The notes beneath the pieces were generated by a model, which was not told the origin of the DNA, did no database searches, and worked only from the letters and a program-made list of their open reading frames with translations. The position numbers and the translations under genes were made by a program. Shown here piece after piece: positions 6,777 through 64,000 of a DNA stretch of 64,000 nt. Origin of the DNA: Blastococcus sp. URHD0036 (lineage in GTDB: Bacteria; Actinomycetota; Actinomycetes; Mycobacteriales; Geodermatophilaceae); NCBI RefSeq assembly GCF_000701365.1, contig NZ_JNIK01000011.1:310001-374000 (forward strand). Direction: 5' to 3'. The stretch's first letter is position 1; every line of letters starts with the position of its first letter.

Positions 6777-7484
6777 GTGAGCGATCCCCTCGCGCCGGGC
6801 GCCTCCGACATCGGCGAGTACCTGGTGAGCTGCCGCTCGTTCGACGAGTACCGGGCCATGTTCGGGCTCACCGACGACGACCTGGCCGGCCGGGTGCTGG
6901 ACTGCCCCGGCGGCGGAGCCGGGTTCACCGCGGTGGCGCGGGGGATCGGCGTGCGGGCCGTCGCGGCGGACCCGGTGTACGCCACCGCGCCCGAGGAACT
7001 CCTCGCACGGCTGCGCGAGGAGCTCGAGCGGGGCAGCGCGTGGACACGGGCGCACGCGTCCCGCTACGTCTGGTCCGCCTACGCCGGCGGACCGGAGGAG
7101 CACGCCCGCGTGCGAGCGGAGGCAGCGGGCCTGTTCGCCACCGACCTGCTCGCCCGGCCGGACGGCTACGTGGCAGCGGCCCTGCCGCACCTGCCCTTCG
7201 CCGACGACAGCTTCGACCTCGTGCTCTCCTCGCACCTGCTGTTCACCTACGCCGACCGCATCGACACGGCGGCCCACGAGGCGGCGCTGCGCGAGCTCGT
7301 GCGGGTCAGCCGCGGCCGGGTGCTGGTCTACCCGCTGGTCGACCAGGCCGGACGGGCCGTGCCCGACCTGGTCGACCGGCTCTCGGCAGCCCTGGGCGCC
7401 GACGGCGTCCGGGTCCGCGTGCGGGGCACCGACTACGAGTTCCAGCGCGGCGCCCGCCAGCTGCTGGAACTCAGCCGGCCGTGA
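6777..7484 (+). CDS. Class I SAM-dependent methyltransferase
   Basis: 235 residues from GTG. Motif I is VLDCPGGGAGFTAVA near residue 40, with the acidic ribose-binding residue in AVAADPVY, and the post-motif segment LPFADDSFDLVLSSHLLF near 139 is typical of small-molecule methyltransferases. The glycine-rich loop has CPGGGAG rather than the usual GxGxG. The substrate is not predictable. The gene converges with the ABC exporter and the two overlap by 14 bases, so transcription from either side could interfere. Confidence 0.83.
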   Translation: MSDPLAPGASDIGEYLVSCRSFDEYRAMFGLTDDDLAGRVLDCPGGGAGFTAVARGIGVRAVAADPVYATAPEELLARLREELERGSAWTRAHASRYVWSAYAGGPEEHARVRAEAAGLFATDLLARPDGYVAAALPHLPFADDSFDLVLSSHLLFTYADRIDTAAHEAALRELVRVSRGRVLVYPLVDQAGRAVPDLVDRLSAALGADGVRVRVRGTDYEFQRGARQLLELSRP

Positions 7485-9357
7485 CCGCCAGGACCGGCTC
7501 CTCGGGCTCGGCGAACTGCGTCCGGTACAGCTCGGCGTAGCGGCCACCGGCGGCGAGGAGGTCCGCGTGCGTCCCGCGCTCGACGATCCGCCCCGCCTCC
7601 AGCACGAGGATGCAGCCGGCGGCGCGCACCGTGGAGAGCCGGTGCGCGATGACGATCGCCGTCCGGCCGTCGAGGGCCTCGTCCAGCGCGGCCTGCACCG
7701 CGGCCTCCGAGGTGGAGTCCAGGTGGGCGGTGGCCTCGTCGAGGAGCACCACCCGGGGGCGGGCGAGCAGCAGGCGGGCGATGGTCAGCCGCTGCCGCTC
7801 GCCGCCGGAGAGCCGGTACCCGCGCTCGCCGACCACCGTGTCCAGCCCGTCGGGCAGCGCGGCCACCAGGTCGGCCAGCCGGGCCCGGGTCAGGGCGGCC
7901 CACAGGTCGTCGTCCGTCGCGTCGGGGGCGGCCAGCAGCAGGTTGGACCGCAGCGACTCGTGGAACAGGTGCCCGTCCTGGGTGACCAGCCCCAGGGTCC
8001 GGCGGATCGCGGCGAACGACAGGTCCCGGACGTCGACCCCGCCCAGCCGGACGGCGCCGGAGTCGACGTCGTAGAGCCGTGGGAGCAGCGAGGCGATGGT
8101 CGACTTGCCCGCGCCGGACGAGCCGACGATCGCCACGACCTGGCCGGGCTGCACGGTGAAGGACACGTCGTGCAGGACGTCGACCCCGCCACGCGAGTCC
8201 AGCTGGGCGACGTCCTCCAGCGAGGCCAGCGACACCTTGTCCGCGGACGGGTAGCCGAAGGTGACGCCGTCGAACTCCACCGACACCGGGCCGTCGGGCA
8301 CGTCGAGGGGGTCGGGCCGCTCGCGCACCAGCGGCACGAGGTCGAGGACCTCGAAGACCCGCTCGAAGCTGACCATGGCCGAGGAGACGTCGACGCGGGC
8401 ACTGGCCAGCGCGGTGAGCGGGGCGTAGAGGCGGGTGAGCAGCAGCGCGAGGGCGACCACGGAACCGGCGTCCAGCGAGCCGCGCAGCGCGTAGAACCCG
8501 CCGAGCCCGTAGACCAGCGCCAGGGCGAGCGCCGACACGAGCATCAGCGCGCTCACGAACGCCCACTGCACCATCGCCGTCCGCACGCCGATGTCGCGCA
8601 CCCGGCCCGCCCGCGAGGCGTACTCCGCGGACTCCCGGTCCGGCCGGCCGAACAGCTTGATCAGCGTCGCGCCGGGCGCGGAGAACCGCTCGGTCGTCTG
8701 GTCGGTCATGGCCGCGTTGTGGTCGGCCGCGGCGCGGCCGAGGTCGGCCAGCCGGGCGCCGATCCGGCGGGCCGGGAACAGGAAGGCCGGCAGGAGCAGC
8801 AGCGACAGCACCGTCACCTGCCACGACAGCGTGAGCATGACCGCGCCGGTCAGCACGAGGGTCACGGTGTTGCTGACGACGCCGGCGAGGGTGTCGCTGA
8901 ACGCCCGCTGCGCCCCGATGACGTCGTTGTTGAGCCGGGAGACCAGCGCGCCGGTGCGGGTCCGGGTGAAGAACGCGACCGGCATCCGCTGCACGTGGTC
9001 GAAGACGGCGGTGCGCAGGTCGAGGATCAGCCCCTCGCCGAGGCTGGCCGAGAGGTACCGGCCCACCAGCGACAGCGCCGTCCCGGCGACGGCGATGACG
9101 GCGATGAGCACCGCGAGCCGGACGACCACCGACACGTCGCTGCCCTCGACGATCTCGTTGACGACCATGCCGGCGAGCAACGGGGTCGCCACCGTCAGCA
9201 CGGCCTCGACGACACCCACCCCGACGAAGGCGGCGATCCGGCGCCGGTGCGGACGGGCGAACTCGCGCACCCGCCGCACGGTCGCCCACGAGAAGGGACG
9301 CCGCTCGGTGCGGCCGTGCATCGCGTTCGACATGGCCGACCAGGCCGACATCTCCAT
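7471..9357 (-). CDS. ABC exporter, fused permease and ATPase
   Basis: 628 residues from the ATG at 9357. A GTG at 9390 lies upstream of the predicted transcription start, so it was rejected. The N-terminal half is a type-I exporter membrane domain of six helices. The C-terminal ATPase has GSSGAGKST (Walker A), VTQDGHLFHESLRSNLLLA (Q-loop region), LSGGERQRL (signature) and VVLLDEATAHLDS (Walker B). It is a homodimeric or half-size drug/lipid exporter of MsbA/LmrA type. Its promoter has the 19-base spacer and palindrome of MerR-family control; the repeat resembles a SoxR box, so export of redox-active compounds is a reasonable guess. Confidence 0.92.
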   Translation of the reverse strand: MEMSAWSAMSNAMHGRTERRPFSWATVRRVREFARPHRRRIAAFVGVGVVEAVLTVATPLLAGMVVNEIVEGSDVSVVVRLAVLIAVIAVAGTALSLVGRYLSASLGEGLILDLRTAVFDHVQRMPVAFFTRTRTGALVSRLNNDVIGAQRAFSDTLAGVVSNTVTLVLTGAVMLTLSWQVTVLSLLLLPAFLFPARRIGARLADLGRAAADHNAAMTDQTTERFSAPGATLIKLFGRPDRESAEYASRAGRVRDIGVRTAMVQWAFVSALMLVSALALALVYGLGGFYALRGSLDAGSVVALALLLTRLYAPLTALASARVDVSSAMVSFERVFEVLDLVPLVRERPDPLDVPDGPVSVEFDGVTFGYPSADKVSLASLEDVAQLDSRGGVDVLHDVSFTVQPGQVVAIVGSSGAGKSTIASLLPRLYDVDSGAVRLGGVDVRDLSFAAIRRTLGLVTQDGHLFHESLRSNLLLAAPDATDDDLWAALTRARLADLVAALPDGLDTVVGERGYRLSGGERQRLTIARLLLARPRVVLLDEATAHLDSTSEAAVQAALDEALDGRTAIVIAHRLSTVRAAGCILVLEAGRIVERGTHADLLAAGGRYAELYRTQFAEPEEPVLAVTAG

Positions 9358-9369
9358 GCTCACCCGCCG

Positions 9370-9400
9370 ACCGTAGGAGCTCCAGTGCACTGGAGGTCAA
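9370..9400 (-). promoter_or_regulatory. MerR/SoxR-type promoter of the ABC exporter
   Basis: On the minus strand TTGACC (9400-9395) and TACGGT (9375-9370) are separated by 19 bases, longer than the usual 17. The spacer region holds the perfect 16-base palindrome CTCCAGTGCACTGGAG (9380-9395). A long spacer with a central dyad is the hallmark of promoters activated by DNA distortion by MerR-family regulators. The arms are close to the SoxR consensus (CCTCAAGT). A soxR gene is present at 60902-61390. Confidence 0.65.
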
Positions 9401-60017: not shown

Positions 60018-60869
60018 TCAGATGTTGGCGCCGTCGGGCGGCGGGTCCTCCGGCAGTCTGGCCGCGACCCCGGTCCCGCCGGCGTCGGGGACGGTAGCGC
60101 CGACCGTGAACGAGGTCATCGACAGCGAGCCGTAGGCGTAGCCGTCGACCAGCACCTCGGCCTTCGCCCCCGTCGCCCCCGCCACCCCGGCCACGTACAG
60201 CAGCGGCAGGAAGTGGTCCGGCGTCGGGACGGCGAGGGAGTGGTCGCGGTGCCCGTCGAGCCGGCCCACGGCCGCCGGGTCGGTGAGCATGAGCTCGCGC
60301 GCCGCCTCGTCGAAGCGCTGCGCCCAGTCGAAGCCGGCGTCGGGCATCGCCCGGCTCACCCCGCCGAGGTTGTGCACCACGTTGCCGCTGCCCAGCACGA
60401 GCACGCCGTCCTCGCGCAACGGCGCCAGGGCCGCCCCGAGCTGGAGGTGGTAGTCGGCCGGCTTGAGCGCGTTGATCGACAGCTGGACGACCGGCACGTC
60501 GGCGTCGGGGAAGGCGTGCCGCAGCACCGACCAGGCGCCGTGGTCGATGCCCCAGCTGTCGAGGTCGGCCCCCACCCAGGTCGGCCGGACGACGTCGGCG
60601 ATCTCCTCGACCAGCCCGGGCAGGCCGGGAGCCGGGTAGTCGACCTGGAACAGCTCACGGGGGAAGCCGAAGAAGTCGTGGATCGTGCGCGGCCGGGGCA
60701 TCGCGGTCACGGCCGTGGCGTGCACGTACCAGTGCGCGGAGACCACGAGGACCGCCCGGGGGCGGGGCACCGATGCGCCGAAGGCTCGCCAGGCCTCGGT
60801 GTACCGGTTGCTCTCCAGGGCGTTCATCGGGTTGCCGTGCCCGATGAAGGCCGCGGGCATCAGTGCCAT
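60018..60869 (-). CDS. Class III extradiol dioxygenase (4,5-DOPA dioxygenase, YgiD-like)
   Basis: 283 residues from ATG. AAFIGHGNPMNAL near the start and VVSAHWYVHATAV near residue 43 carry His ligands; WGIDHGAWSVLRHAFPDAD near 106 and GNVVHNLGGVS near 160 are other family stretches. Members use Zn or Fe to cleave catechol-type rings of DOPA. Here the cyclase gene follows it in the same direction, suggesting a small aromatic-catabolism unit. The substrate is unproven. Confidence 0.88.
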   Translation of the reverse strand: MALMPAAFIGHGNPMNALESNRYTEAWRAFGASVPRPRAVLVVSAHWYVHATAVTAMPRPRTIHDFFGFPRELFQVDYPAPGLPGLVEEIADVVRPTWVGADLDSWGIDHGAWSVLRHAFPDADVPVVQLSINALKPADYHLQLGAALAPLREDGVLVLGSGNVVHNLGGVSRAMPDAGFDWAQRFDEAARELMLTDPAAVGRLDGHRDHSLAVPTPDHFLPLLYVAGVAGATGAKAEVLVDGYAYGSLSMTSFTVGATVPDAGGTGVAARLPEDPPPDGANI

Positions 60870-60901: not shown

Positions 60902-61390
60902 CTACCCCGCGCGCCCGGCCGCGTCCCCCGCGTTCGAGGTGGGCGGTATGCGGCGCAGCGCCGGGGAGAGCCAGCGGGCGCCCGGCCCGTACGCGGCGGC
61001 GACGTCCCCCGCGTTCGACAGCGCGCACCGGGACAACGACAGGCAGCCGCAGCCGATGCACGCCGCCAGCCCGTCGCGCAGCTGGGTGAGCGCGGCGATC
61101 TGCTCGTCGAGGCGGGCCCGCCAGGTGTGCGACAGCCGGGCCCAGTCCCGCGCCGTCGGGGTGCGGCCCTCCGGCAGGGTCGCCAGCGCCTCGCGGATCT
61201 CCGGGAGCGAGAGCCCCACGTTCTGCGCCGCCCGGATGAACGCCAGCCGGCGCAGCACCGACCGCGGGAACCGGCGCGCACCCCCGGCCGTCCGCTCGCA
61301 GCTGACCAGTCCCTCCGCCTCGTAGTAGCGCAGCGCGGACACCGCGACCCCCGACCGTGCCGCGACCTCGCCGATCGCCATGAGCTCCAC
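60902..61390 (-). CDS. soxR: Redox-sensing MerR-family activator SoxR
   Basis: 162 residues from a GTG with AGAGGA at ideal spacing (ATG at 61381 possible). The MerR winged helix is IGEVAARSGVAVSALRYYEAEGL (given in part), and the 2Fe-2S site is C111-C114-C116-C122 in CIGCGCLSLSRC, matching E. coli SoxR spacing. SoxR is activated when its cluster is oxidised by redox-cycling compounds. It is divergent from an SDR-QueA operon with a SoxR-type box between (61407-61424). Confidence 0.93.
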   Translation of the reverse strand: MELMAIGEVAARSGVAVSALRYYEAEGLVSCERTAGGARRFPRSVLRRLAFIRAAQNVGLSLPEIREALATLPEGRTPTARDWARLSHTWRARLDEQIAALTQLRDGLAACIGCGCLSLSRCALSNAGDVAAAYGPGARWLSPALRRIPPTSNAGDAAGRAG

Positions 61391-61402: not shown

Positions 61403-61433
61403 TTGACCTCGAGTGGACTTGAGGCAAGACGGT
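61403..61433 (+). promoter_or_regulatory. SoxR box and long-spacer promoter of the SDR-queA operon
   Basis: TTGACC (61403-61408) and GACGGT (61428-61433) are 19 bases apart with CCTCGAGTGGACTTGAGG (61407-61424) between. The dyad matches the SoxR consensus at nearly every arm position. The -10 is weak, as expected for an activator-dependent promoter, and stands 7 bases before the SDR ATG, so the mRNA would be leaderless. Confidence 0.8.
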
Positions 61434-61440
61434 ACGCGGC

Positions 61441-62130
61441 ATGGAGATCCGCACCGCTCTCGTCACCGGCGCCTCGCGCGGCCTCGGTGCCGCCCTCGCC
61501 ACCGCCCTGAACGCCCGGGGATGGCACCTCGTCCTCGACGGCCGGGACCCCGACCGGCTGGCCGCCGCCGTCGCCGCGCTGCCCCGTCCCGACCTGGTCA
61601 CCGCCGTGCCCGGGAACGTCGCCGACCCGGACCACCGCGCCGCCCTCGCCGCCGCCGTCCCCTCCCGGCTCGACGCCGTGGTCAACAACGCCTCCGACCT
61701 CGGGCCCACCCCGCTCCCCCGCCTCGCCGACCTGCCCCCGGCCGCGCTGGAGCGGGTGCTCGCGGTCAACACCGTCGCGCCGCTGGCACTGGTCCAGGCG
61801 GTGCTGCCGGCACTCCGCACCGCCCGCGGCCGGGTGCTGGACGTGAGCAGCGACGCCGCGGTCGAGCCCTACCCCGGCTGGGGCGGCTACGGCGCCAGCA
61901 AGGCCGCGCTGGACCACCTCTCCGCCGTCCTGGCGGTGGAGGAGCCGGCGCTGCGCGTGTACGCCGTCGACCCGGGCGACATGGCCACCGACATGCACCG
62001 TGCCGCCGCGCCGGAGGACGACGGGCTGCCGGGGCCGGAGACCGTGGTCCCGGCCCTGCTCCGCCTGCTGGACGACGACCTCCCGTCCGGCCGGTACCGC
62101 GCCGCCGACCTCGTGGCGGTGGCCCGATGA
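61441..62130 (+). CDS. Short-chain dehydrogenase/reductase
   Basis: 229 residues from ATG. TALVTGASRGLGAALATALN is the TGxxxGxG NAD(P) motif, VVNNASDLG the NNAG-like motif, LDVSSDAAVEP includes the catalytic Ser and GGYGASKAALDHLSAVLAVE the YxxxK. Most SDRs reduce ketones or oxidise alcohols. It is controlled by the SoxR box in its promoter and overlaps queA by 4 bases. A role in disarming redox-cycling compounds is inferred from regulation only. Confidence 0.93.
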   Translation: MEIRTALVTGASRGLGAALATALNARGWHLVLDGRDPDRLAAAVAALPRPDLVTAVPGNVADPDHRAALAAAVPSRLDAVVNNASDLGPTPLPRLADLPPAALERVLAVNTVAPLALVQAVLPALRTARGRVLDVSSDAAVEPYPGWGGYGASKAALDHLSAVLAVEEPALRVYAVDPGDMATDMHRAAAPEDDGLPGPETVVPALLRLLDDDLPSGRYRAADLVAVAR

Positions 62131-63155
62131 CCGCGACGTTCACCCTCCCGCCCGGGAGCGAGGCGACCGCACCGCCGGAGCGCCGCGGTCTGACCCGCGA
62201 CGGCGTCCGGCTGATGACCGTGCGGCCCGCCGGCATCACGCACTCCGCGTTCCGCGACCTGCCCGACCTGCTCTCCCCGGGCGACCTGGTCGTCGTCAAC
62301 ACCTCGGCGACGCTGCCGGCCCGGCTCGACGTCCGGCGGCGGGACGGCGTGCTCGTGCCGCTGCACGTCTCGACCACGCTGGACGACGGCGACTGGGTCG
62401 TGGAGCTGCGCCGTCCGGACAACGACGGCCCGGACCTCGGCGCCGAACCGGACAGCACCGTGCAACTCCCCGACGGGCGGGCCCTGCGGCTGGTCTCCGG
62501 ACACCCGGACGCCGGTCGCGGTTCGCGGCTGTGGCGGGCCCGGCCCGAGCCCCCGGTGTCGGCCCGCACGGTCCTCGCCCTGCACGGCCGGCCGATCACC
62601 TACGGATACCTCCGCGGGCCGGTCCGGCTCGCCGACACCCAGAACGTGTACGCCACCGAGCCGGGCAGCGCGGAGAACGCCAGCGCCGGGAGGCCGTTCA
62701 CCGACCGGCTGCTGGTGCGGCTCATGGCGCGCGGGGTGCCGGTCGTGCCCGTCGTCCTGCACGCCGGGGTGTCCAGCCCGGAGCTGCACGAGCCGCCCGC
62801 GCCCGAGCGGTTCGCCGTCCCGGAGGTCACCGCGCGGCTGGTCACCGCCACCGCGCGGGCCGGCGGGCGGGTGGTCGCCGTCGGCACCACGGTCACCCGG
62901 GCGCTGGAGTCGGCGACCGGGGAGGACGGCGTCACCCGGCCGGTGGTCGGGTGGACGCGCCTCGTGCTGGGTCCGGAGCGGCCCGCCCGGGTGGTGACCG
63001 GCCTGGTGACGGGTCTGCACGCGCCCGAGGCCTCGCACCTGCAGCTGCTCGAGGCGGTCGCCGGCGGGGACCTCGTGCGGCAGGCGTACGAGGAGGCCGT
63101 CGCCGAGCGCTACCTGTGGCACGAGTACGGCGACTCGATGCTCTTCCTGCCCTGA
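62127..63155 (+). CDS. QueA-like S-adenosylmethionine:tRNA ribosyltransferase-isomerase
   Basis: 342 residues from ATG. VVVNTSATLPARLDVRRRDG near residue 56 matches the family NxSxxxPARL stretch; TYGYLRGPVRLADTQNVYAT and SAENASAGRPFTDRLLVRLM near residue 190 fit QueA, and HLQLLEAVAGGDLVRQAYEEA is near the end. QueA transfers ribosyl from SAM to preQ1 in tRNA. No other queuosine gene is in the window, and it is tied to an SDR under a SoxR box, so it may have diverged. Ends at a hairpin shared with cbiD's terminator type. Confidence 0.85.
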   Translation: MTATFTLPPGSEATAPPERRGLTRDGVRLMTVRPAGITHSAFRDLPDLLSPGDLVVVNTSATLPARLDVRRRDGVLVPLHVSTTLDDGDWVVELRRPDNDGPDLGAEPDSTVQLPDGRALRLVSGHPDAGRGSRLWRARPEPPVSARTVLALHGRPITYGYLRGPVRLADTQNVYATEPGSAENASAGRPFTDRLLVRLMARGVPVVPVVLHAGVSSPELHEPPAPERFAVPEVTARLVTATARAGGRVVAVGTTVTRALESATGEDGVTRPVVGWTRLVLGPERPARVVTGLVTGLHAPEASHLQLLEAVAGGDLVRQAYEEAVAERYLWHEYGDSMLFLP

Positions 63156-63201
63156 TGTGGAGTGCGCGAGCGCAGGTTTCCTGCGCTCTGGCACTCCACA
63201 T
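63155..63201. terminator. Bidirectional terminator hairpin, queA/fhuF-like
   Basis: ATGTGGAGTG pairs with CACTCCACAT and GAGCGCAG with CTGCGCTC around a TTTC loop. It spans the gap between convergent stops at 63155 and 63201. Its core 39 bases closely resemble the hairpin at 22088-22128. Confidence 0.75.
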
Positions 63202-63914
63202 CACCCGATGCGCTCGGCGGTGTCCTCGAGGAGGACCTGGCGCTCGAAGGGCGTCCGGCGGGGGCAGGAGGTGCAGGTCGGCTCGTGCGGCAGCCGGTAC
63301 AGCAGGCAGCACGAGGCGCGCTGGGTGAACCGCACCGCCCGCGGGCCGACGTCGACGTAGCGGGGTGCGGGCAGCGGTGCACCGACCGCCGCCGCGAGCG
63401 GGCCGGCCAGGGCGGTCACGGCCCCGACGTCCCCCAGCGCCCGCCCCAGCGCCAGCAGCCGGTTGGCGATCGAGTCGGTGGCGATCGCCCACAGCGGCGC
63501 CGGCCGCACCGCCCCCGCTTCGGCGACCGCCCCGATCACGGCCTCGAGCGTCTCGCGCAGCTCCGCCGCGACGTCGCCCCACGGCGCACCCGACACCGCG
63601 GCGACCGGGGTGCCGCCGGCCAGCAGGGTCAGCGACAGGTCCGGCAGCCGGGGCGACAGGGGGACGCCGGTGGCGAGGCCCGCCAGCGGCGGCGTCACGA
63701 GGACGGACGACAGGGAGTACCACCACACCGTCGCGAGCACCCGCCGGTCGTCGCTGCGGTACCGCTGCCCGAGCTCGGCGACCCGCTCCGCCGTCCACCC
63801 CGGGTCGGCCAGCAGCGGCCCGGGGACGACGCTGCCGACCGGCGGCGCGACCAGGCCGAGAGCACCGGCGCCGGGCACCCGCGCGGCCACCGCCGCCTGC
63901 CCGCCGTCCGTCAC
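63201..63914 (-). CDS. FhuF-like siderophore-iron reductase (2Fe-2S)
   Basis: 237 residues from GTG. The C-terminal cluster motif RASCCLLYRLPHEPTCTSCP gives C202, C203, C214 and C217 (CC-x10-C-x2-C), the FhuF 2Fe-2S signature. Upstream sequence (WWYSLSSVLVTPPLAGLATG, ATDSIANRLLALGRALGD) fits the FhuF ferric-siderophore reductase fold. It reduces Fe(III)-siderophore in the cytosol to release iron. It complements the NIS operon at the left end of the window, 60 kb away. The region 63915-64000 shows no supported gene. Confidence 0.87.
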   Translation of the reverse strand: MTDGGQAAVAARVPGAGALGLVAPPVGSVVPGPLLADPGWTAERVAELGQRYRSDDRRVLATVWWYSLSSVLVTPPLAGLATGVPLSPRLPDLSLTLLAGGTPVAAVSGAPWGDVAAELRETLEAVIGAVAEAGAVRPAPLWAIATDSIANRLLALGRALGDVGAVTALAGPLAAAVGAPLPAPRYVDVGPRAVRFTQRASCCLLYRLPHEPTCTSCPRRTPFERQVLLEDTAERIG

Positions 63915-64000
63915 GCGCCCAGTCTGACCGGGCCCGGGGCAGCACCGTCGCAGCGGGCGGCGCGGAGCCATACGGTGTGCTCCAGAGCACGTCGAGCCGC

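Follow-up and report, generated by a model that had tools for sequence, protein, structure and literature searches.

A SoxR-linked SDR/QueA-paralogue operon of actinobacteria, apparently outside queuosine synthesis

Why should a gene of the QueA family stand in an operon with a SoxR-type promoter? The question is raised by a 64,000-nucleotide stretch of the Blastococcus sp. URHD0036 genome (positions 310,001 to 374,000 of contig NZ_JNIK01000011.1; hereafter the window), in which an SDR oxidoreductase gene and a QueA-like gene lie divergent from soxR (Table 1). The fold of QueA is peculiar to this enzyme, for which, to our knowledge, a single reaction is known. A member of this family behind a SoxR box might either still serve queuosine modification of tRNA or have been turned to another use.

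Layout of the operon and its promoter in the window

As the initial annotation had described, a SoxR dyad lies in a promoter with a 19-base spacer directly before the SDR gene, and the SDR frame overlaps the QueA-like frame. The overlap measures 4 bp, the bases ATGA being common to both. The SDR start codon was found only 7 bases past the −10 element, so the mRNA of the two genes is probably leaderless. The product of the divergent soxR gene scored 198.1 bits with TIGR01950, above the equivalog cut-off of 116.9, carried the [2Fe-2S] cluster motif CX2CXCX5C, and was the only SoxR above this cut-off in its own genome. In the SoxR family, it is this cluster that redox-active compounds oxidise.

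Table 1. Positions of the soxR, promoter, SDR and QueA-like features in the window
Feature	Position	Strand	Remarks
soxR	60902..61390	-	start GTG 61390 or ATG 61381; divergent from SDR/QueA-like operon
-35 element TTGACC	61403..61408	+	read from sequence
SoxR box CCTCGAGTGGACTTGAGG (dyad)	61407..61424	+	sequence and whole-genome pattern scan
-10 element GACGGT	61428..61433	+	after 19-bp spacer 61409-61427
SDR oxidoreductase gene	61441..62130	+	229 aa; start ATG 61441
QueA-like gene, divergent paralogue family	62127..63155	+	342 aa

The box CCTCGAGTGGACTTGAGG shared 15 of 18 bases with CCTCAAGTTAACTTGAGG, which is the SoxR box of E. coli printed in the available part of PMC4411124; it agreed with the E. 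coli box in 15 of the 16 non-central letters, and 7 of its 8 outer pairs were palindromic. Its placement between the −35 and −10 elements in an over-long spacer, 19 bp in the window, is the layout of SoxR-activated promoters. The own 5.18-Mb genome was scanned with the 22-base promoter pattern at up to 3 mismatches, which gave one perfect match (that of the window), one site with 1 mismatch and two with 3, versus zero matches for the reversed pattern used as a control in the same genome at the same tolerance. The site with 1 mismatch (G000:C12:196367-196388) has the same layout and stands before a gene of the zinc-binding-dehydrogenase family (MDR; PF00107, PF08240), which we take to be quinone-oxidoreductase-like. 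In preceding an MDR-family oxidoreductase gene, this second site resembles the SoxR regulon of S. coelicolor, which is described in the available part of PMC4146615 as six genes with redox enzymes among the targets. That part of the article does not mention the SDR-QueA pair for the six-gene regulon, and where the pair occurs in presumed Streptomyces it is, unlike in the window, without a SoxR promoter.

Another MerR-type promoter was observed on the minus strand of the window (9379-9400): TTGACCTCCAGTGCACTGGAGC has a near-perfect dyad with three mismatches to the SoxR pattern and lies directly before an ABC exporter gene (approximately 7471-9390, minus strand; ABC_membrane and ABC_tran). It may belong to another MerR-family regulator.

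The SDR protein matched PF00106 with 122.3 bits and, like classical SDR oxidoreductases of this family, contained the cofactor and catalytic motifs TGxxxGxG and YxxxK (TGASRGLG at position 9 and YGASK at position 150). It differs from classical SDRs in scoring far below the cut-off of its nearest NCBIfam equivalog (126.5 vs 218 bits), and its substrate was therefore left unassigned.

Queuosine partners and the QueA-like protein family

Four partners in the queuosine pathway, TGT, QueG, QueH and QueC, were searched for. TGT was found in none of the 112 Geodermatophilaceae genomes, the own genome included (controls: 14 of 14 positive), and neither QueG nor QueH, whose searches were positive in 7 and 2 of the 14 controls, respectively, had any match in the own genome. 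QueC gave a weak and partial match there (2.2e-4, 22.3 bits, profile 5-61); some QueC match was obtained in 96 of the 112 family genomes, a strong full match only in G042 (3.3e-76), and elsewhere in the family a weaker full match in G020 (6.1e-22) and one in two pieces in G106. PF02547 itself was matched in 46 of the 112 genomes, one match being a fragment. The remark in the initial annotation that most actinobacteria are without queuosine genes thus stands for the Geodermatophilaceae but fails for the phylum as sampled, where TGT was present in 241 of 396 genomes.

PF02547 matches in these 396 phylum genomes formed two score classes. When genomes were classed as canonical or divergent by E-value, and not by inspection of each sequence, TGT was present in 204 of the 205 canonical-score genomes (G495 being the exception) versus none of the 47 divergent-score genomes; 15 of the 267 PF02547-matching genomes, among which 5 have TGT, were left out of this comparison for their fragmentary or borderline scores. 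In the known route, preQ1 enters tRNA through TGT. A role of the QueA-like gene in queuosine synthesis was rejected on the grounds that TGT, QueG and QueH were unmatched in the own genome, and the suggestion that tRNA queuosine responds to oxidants found no support, because without TGT there is no known way for preQ1 into tRNA. A true queuosine enzyme fed with salvaged precursors, by which tRNA modification would answer oxidants, would account for the PF02547 match and for QueA models being the best, if sub-cut-off, NCBIfam matches; with TGT unmatched in 112/112 family and 47/47 divergent-score genomes, no QueG or QueH in the own genome and QueA scores below cut-off, this reading is highly improbable. 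As far as genomes can show it, this paralogue of QueA no longer takes part in queuosine synthesis. The available part of a 2023 survey (PMC10570037) classes genomes without tgt as non-Q, with which our result is consistent, and contains no discussion of queA without tgt. Many actinobacterial PF02547 matches would then not be queuosine genes (at least 577 relatives were found), which calls for caution in surveys that score queA through COG0809 or PF02547.

Among nine listed genomes of one genus, g13, a QueA-like gene without TGT was seen in G207, G261, G488 and G496, and TGT without a QueA match in G149, G185, G436, G472 and G503; it is possible that the two genes are mutually exclusive there.

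The QueA-like protein had PF02547 (Queuosine_synth) as its sole Pfam match, with 223.8 bits over profile positions 5-321 of 322. All of its QueA matches in NCBIfam were under cut-off: three equivalog models gave 162.1, 131.3 and 58.3 bits against cut-offs of 324, 267.45 and 588, respectively, which amounts to about half of the first two cut-offs, the third model (588) being failed by canonical members as well. The former two cut-offs were missed by 7 of 7 further divergent members tested, among them Ktedonospora, and passed by 3 of 3 canonical members. A structure model predicted from 87 sequences reached a pLDDT of 94.6 (an earlier one from 10 sequences was poor, with a pLDDT of 63.9, and was left unused), and had the complete QueA fold in common with the solved QueA-family structures 1wdi, 1vky and 1yy3 (Z 25.0-27.7, with an rmsd of 8.0-9.1 over 272-290 aligned residues). 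Rmsd values of 8-9 suggest that the domain angle differs or that there is flexibility. A search of a viral fold library gave zero matches at E <= 0.001.

Residues were compared between 29 canonical proteins (29 of 30 loci extracted, best-scoring) and 122 divergent ones. R24-D25, N58, G253-T254-T255, R258, E261, H298 and G335-D336 were among the residues conserved in at least 90% of both groups. G52-D53 and the VGTT..R.LE motif are likewise shared with QueA. The residues common to both groups are likely the SAM-handling core, and by this likeness to QueA the QueA-like protein would bind SAM; no SAM complex of QueA was available in 2005, according to the part of PMC1282579 at hand. The fixed canonical residues in the GLHFT, NFH and FGDA segments were replaced in the divergent proteins, GLHFT by GRPFT and NFH by G[LW]H, along with other fixed switches. 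In the alignment to QueA that the initial annotation had proposed, RD and VGTT..R.LE were thus kept and the residues of these three segments were not. Twelve positions were identical in 122/122 divergent proteins and different in the canonical majority (H80, E93, R95, P156, Y159, E183, R189, S217, G296, H304, W331 and H332), and P190 and E333 were near-fixed (120/122). Such a swap of one fixed residue set for another would be the expected trace of a change of acceptor, and, judging from the canonical motifs, the switched positions may line the pocket. The two QueA types were not clearly separated by net charge (medians −1 and −4).

By sequence comparison, then, the QueA-like proteins are a separate and intact enzyme family, and the earlier idea of a repurposed QueA was supported by TGT, QueG and QueH being unmatched, by QueC being weak and partial, and by a family with fixed residues of its own. 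One might still suppose a functionless QueA relic, decaying beside an SDR that alone is selected, and cite for it that PF02547 occurs in only 46 of 112 family genomes, one a fragment, and that matches in presumed Streptomyces are fragmented or partial (G521, G561, G530, G546). The 102 alignment columns found invariant over 10 Geodermatophilaceae members, the twelve family-specific positions without a single exception, the confident and complete predicted fold and the SDR overlap kept in 95 of 122 loci make such a relic very improbable.

Conservation of the gene pair and of its promoter

Loci were taken with best scores first, namely 30 of 46 from Geodermatophilaceae, the 80 top-scoring ones among at least 577 relatives that had been confirmed, and 12 of 36 from presumed Streptomyces; the resulting 122 loci (30 + 80 + 12) hold 112 distinct QueA-like proteins, ten occurring twice, and close or well-scoring members are over-represented among them. 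In all 122, an SDR gene stood immediately 5' of the QueA-like gene on the same strand, with the 4-bp overlap in 95 and no SDR-QueA-like fusion seen in any. The TGxxxGxG pattern was present in 111 of the SDRs and a narrow form of YxxxK in 100, some of the misses carrying YG.AK. This linkage is strict, and SDR and QueA-like proteins would act as a metabolically coupled pair. When a third broadly conserved neighbour was sought over the 80 loci, only SDR, QueA-like and SoxR genes were obtained, the next cluster covering 11 loci; since crude ORF picking had lost rows in this clustering (SDR 42 and SoxR 38 loci), tblastn counts were used instead. With no third gene broadly conserved beside the pair, the neighbourhood gave no hint of the substrate. 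In one close relative (L025), a single in-frame stop was observed in the SDR gene, the remaining frame and the QueA-like gene being intact.

A quick-type tree with 100 proteins of the divergent type, the identical pair L016/L084 among them, and 29 of the canonical type separated the two types with a support of 100. One divergent branch of 77 rows (support 99) contained all 46 rows with an adjacent soxR, compared with 0 of 23 outside it; four further clade rows, one of them with a truncated soxR, end too near a contig edge for adjacency to be judged. The clade includes Geodermatophilaceae, Mycobacteriaceae, Frankiaceae, Pseudonocardiaceae, Nocardiaceae, Kribbellaceae, Nocardioidaceae and others, and the window protein grouped beside Geodermatophilus proteins. 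For the promoter to be scored as present, TTGA and 5 or more of the 8 dyad pairs had to occur in a fixed register; this criterion was chosen after the sequences had been seen, and 0.4-0.9% of dinucleotide-shuffled versions of these upstream regions reached it. By it, the TTGA-dyad-19 bp layout was present in 72 of the 75 testable rows inside the clade (failing in L088, L089 and L123; L072 and L098 were not testable) versus 0 of 23 outside. These comparisons support SoxR control of the operon, and with it the earlier claim that SoxR drives it.

The layout was also retained in 25 of 27 clade rows without an adjacent soxR, counted where at least 700 bases lay upstream; L075 and L085, the latter with its soxR truncated, were left out because a contig ends close by. 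A SoxR above cut-off was encoded elsewhere in 17 of 17 tested clade genomes without an adjacent soxR, and adding three genomes that do not belong to the clade gave 19 of 20, the miss being Ktedonospora. Among SoxR proteins encoded next to the operon, 67 of 68 had CX2CXCX5C, the exception being cut by a contig end. The letters of the dyad drifted: at least 12 of the 16 SoxR letters were matched in 18 of the 27 non-adjacent clade rows and fewer in nine, set against a background in which 17 of 1851 windows reached 12 letters, some of these probably true sites. Because rows with an adjacent soxR drift as well, the drift does not show another regulator, although one may be involved.

If the dyad served only the autoregulation of soxR, or bound another MerR-family protein, the operon itself would be SoxR-independent. 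The box does lie just 5' of soxR too, where repression would be possible as in Stenotrophomonas (described in the available part of PMC4411124), and the nine non-adjacent rows below 12/16 letters would suit another protein. The dyad of the window, however, matches 15/16 letters and holds the −35/19-bp/−10 register toward the SDR gene, and it persists in 25 of 27 rows in which, without a neighbouring soxR, autoregulation would be useless; we regard SoxR independence as improbable. In seven rows the operator position was kept with altered letters (L112, L128 (Nocardia), L134, L101, L079, L082 and L090; for instance CCTGAACAGAGGTTCAGG in L112), as would be seen if the regulator had shifted in specificity or given way to another MerR protein. 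A search by eye for another divergent MerR-type regulator, based on crude ORFs in 14 loci without an adjacent soxR, revealed none.

The SDR/QueA-like pair also occurs without this promoter. SoxR-type promoters were found in 0 of 12 presumed Streptomyces loci and 0 of 5 loci of uncultured Geodermatophilaceae (L002, L003, L005, L006, L008), and the pair without one was also present in Streptosporangiaceae, Acidimicrobiaceae, Ilumatobacteraceae, Thermoleophilia and Ktedonospora (Chloroflexota). SoxR control is therefore not essential to the activity of the pair, and its absence in several lineages suggests that the pair is probably older than its SoxR control. In the simplest history, SoxR control would have been acquired a single time, at the root of the clade, and soxR would have moved later; the unit as a whole may also have spread horizontally.

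Upstream of the pair in the presumed Streptomyces loci L141-L152, a conserved block of TAGGnCGAAGgGCCc and GTTCCTAcgTTG was observed. TAGGnCGAAGgGCCc resembles, imperfectly, the OsdR/DevR dormancy box AGGGCCGATCGGCCCT as printed in the available part of PMC5069765, which we take as a lead only. QueA matches in pieces or partial were also seen among the presumed Streptomyces (G512, G513, G517, G554; G521, G561; G530, G546). In the first four the pieces share one open-frame length, which makes an insertion or divergent stretch as likely as breakage, and in G521 and G561 they lie in frames of differing length.

Proposed function of the operon

From TGT absence, the constant SDR partner and the clade-wide promoter together, the locus is, on comparative grounds, an old SoxR-linked SDR/QueA-paralogue module and not one for queuosine synthesis. 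Our favoured reading, which we hold to be reasonably probable, is a SoxR-switched two-gene stress operon, in which a QueA paralogue outside queuosine synthesis would still carry out SAM-dependent chemistry of the ribosyl-transfer type, on a non-tRNA acceptor and together with the SDR. Redox-active compounds would oxidise the [2Fe-2S] cluster of the window SoxR, as in its family; SoxR would then remodel the over-long promoter, of which the architecture is observed, and switch the operon on. The SDR, using NAD(P)H, would reduce or oxidise a substrate of carbonyl or quinone-like nature, and the QueA-like enzyme would use SAM, passing a ribose-derived group to the substrate of the SDR or to its product.

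The finer points of this scheme are put forward more tentatively. The SDR might prepare or finish the non-tRNA acceptor, whereby a redox-active or carbonyl compound would be disarmed or a protective metabolite made, which we hold to be possible but less likely than not. Equally conjectural is that a neofunctionalised QueA takes the ribose-derived group, perhaps of epoxycyclopentane type, from SAM and passes it to a redox-active small molecule. Read in this way, the operon could perhaps represent a so far undescribed SAM-consuming conjugation or protective-metabolite pathway across actinobacteria, SoxR-switched and SDR-assisted.

Another acceptor to be weighed is a different nucleic acid or nucleoside, such as another tRNA or rRNA position or a free or oxidised nucleoside, with SoxR providing the link to oxidant damage. 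Kinship with an RNA-modifying enzyme, the complete QueA fold of the model and the SoxR-type promoter would all agree with it. Yet the canonical residues at GLHFT, NFH and FGDA are replaced, no further gene is broadly conserved beside the pair, and the constant partner is an SDR of metabolic type, so that we consider RNA or nucleoside modification unlikely and keep to the non-tRNA acceptor handled jointly with the SDR.

Among known systems, canonical QueA, the tRNA preQ1(34) SAM ribosyltransferase-isomerase (TIGR00113, NF001140, PF02547), differs in occurring in genomes with a TGT partner, whereas the divergent family is without TGT and paired with an SDR. The soxR-mfsA system of Stenotrophomonas maltophilia, in which soxR stands head to head with its target and the box lies between −35 and −10 (available part of PMC4411124), has the same divergent soxR/box arrangement as the window; its target is an efflux pump, whereas that in the window is an enzyme pair of metabolic type. 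Searches of open-licence literature, judged by titles and abstract openings, listed no work on a QueA paralogue under SoxR control and none on an actinobacterial QueA family outside queuosine synthesis. The operon thus appears as a known fold and a known regulator in a new pairing, with a reaction that is probably new. Such a paralogue, widespread, constant in its partner and probably induced by redox cyclers, offers a testable entry to new SAM chemistry.

Some further features were observed around the operon. Outside Geodermatophilaceae, a LigB gene was seen within the fetched stretches in one locus (L129) only and FhuF in none. In the window, a gene for a LigB-type dioxygenase (60018-60860, in line with soxR) and a gene for an FhuF-like 2Fe-2S protein (63201-63971) flank the unit, as they do in most Geodermatophilaceae loci. 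Between the convergent QueA-like and FhuF-like genes (63154-63202) lies an inverted repeat, GATGTGGAGTGC ... GCACTCCACATC, which, judged by eye, looks like a shared bidirectional terminator.
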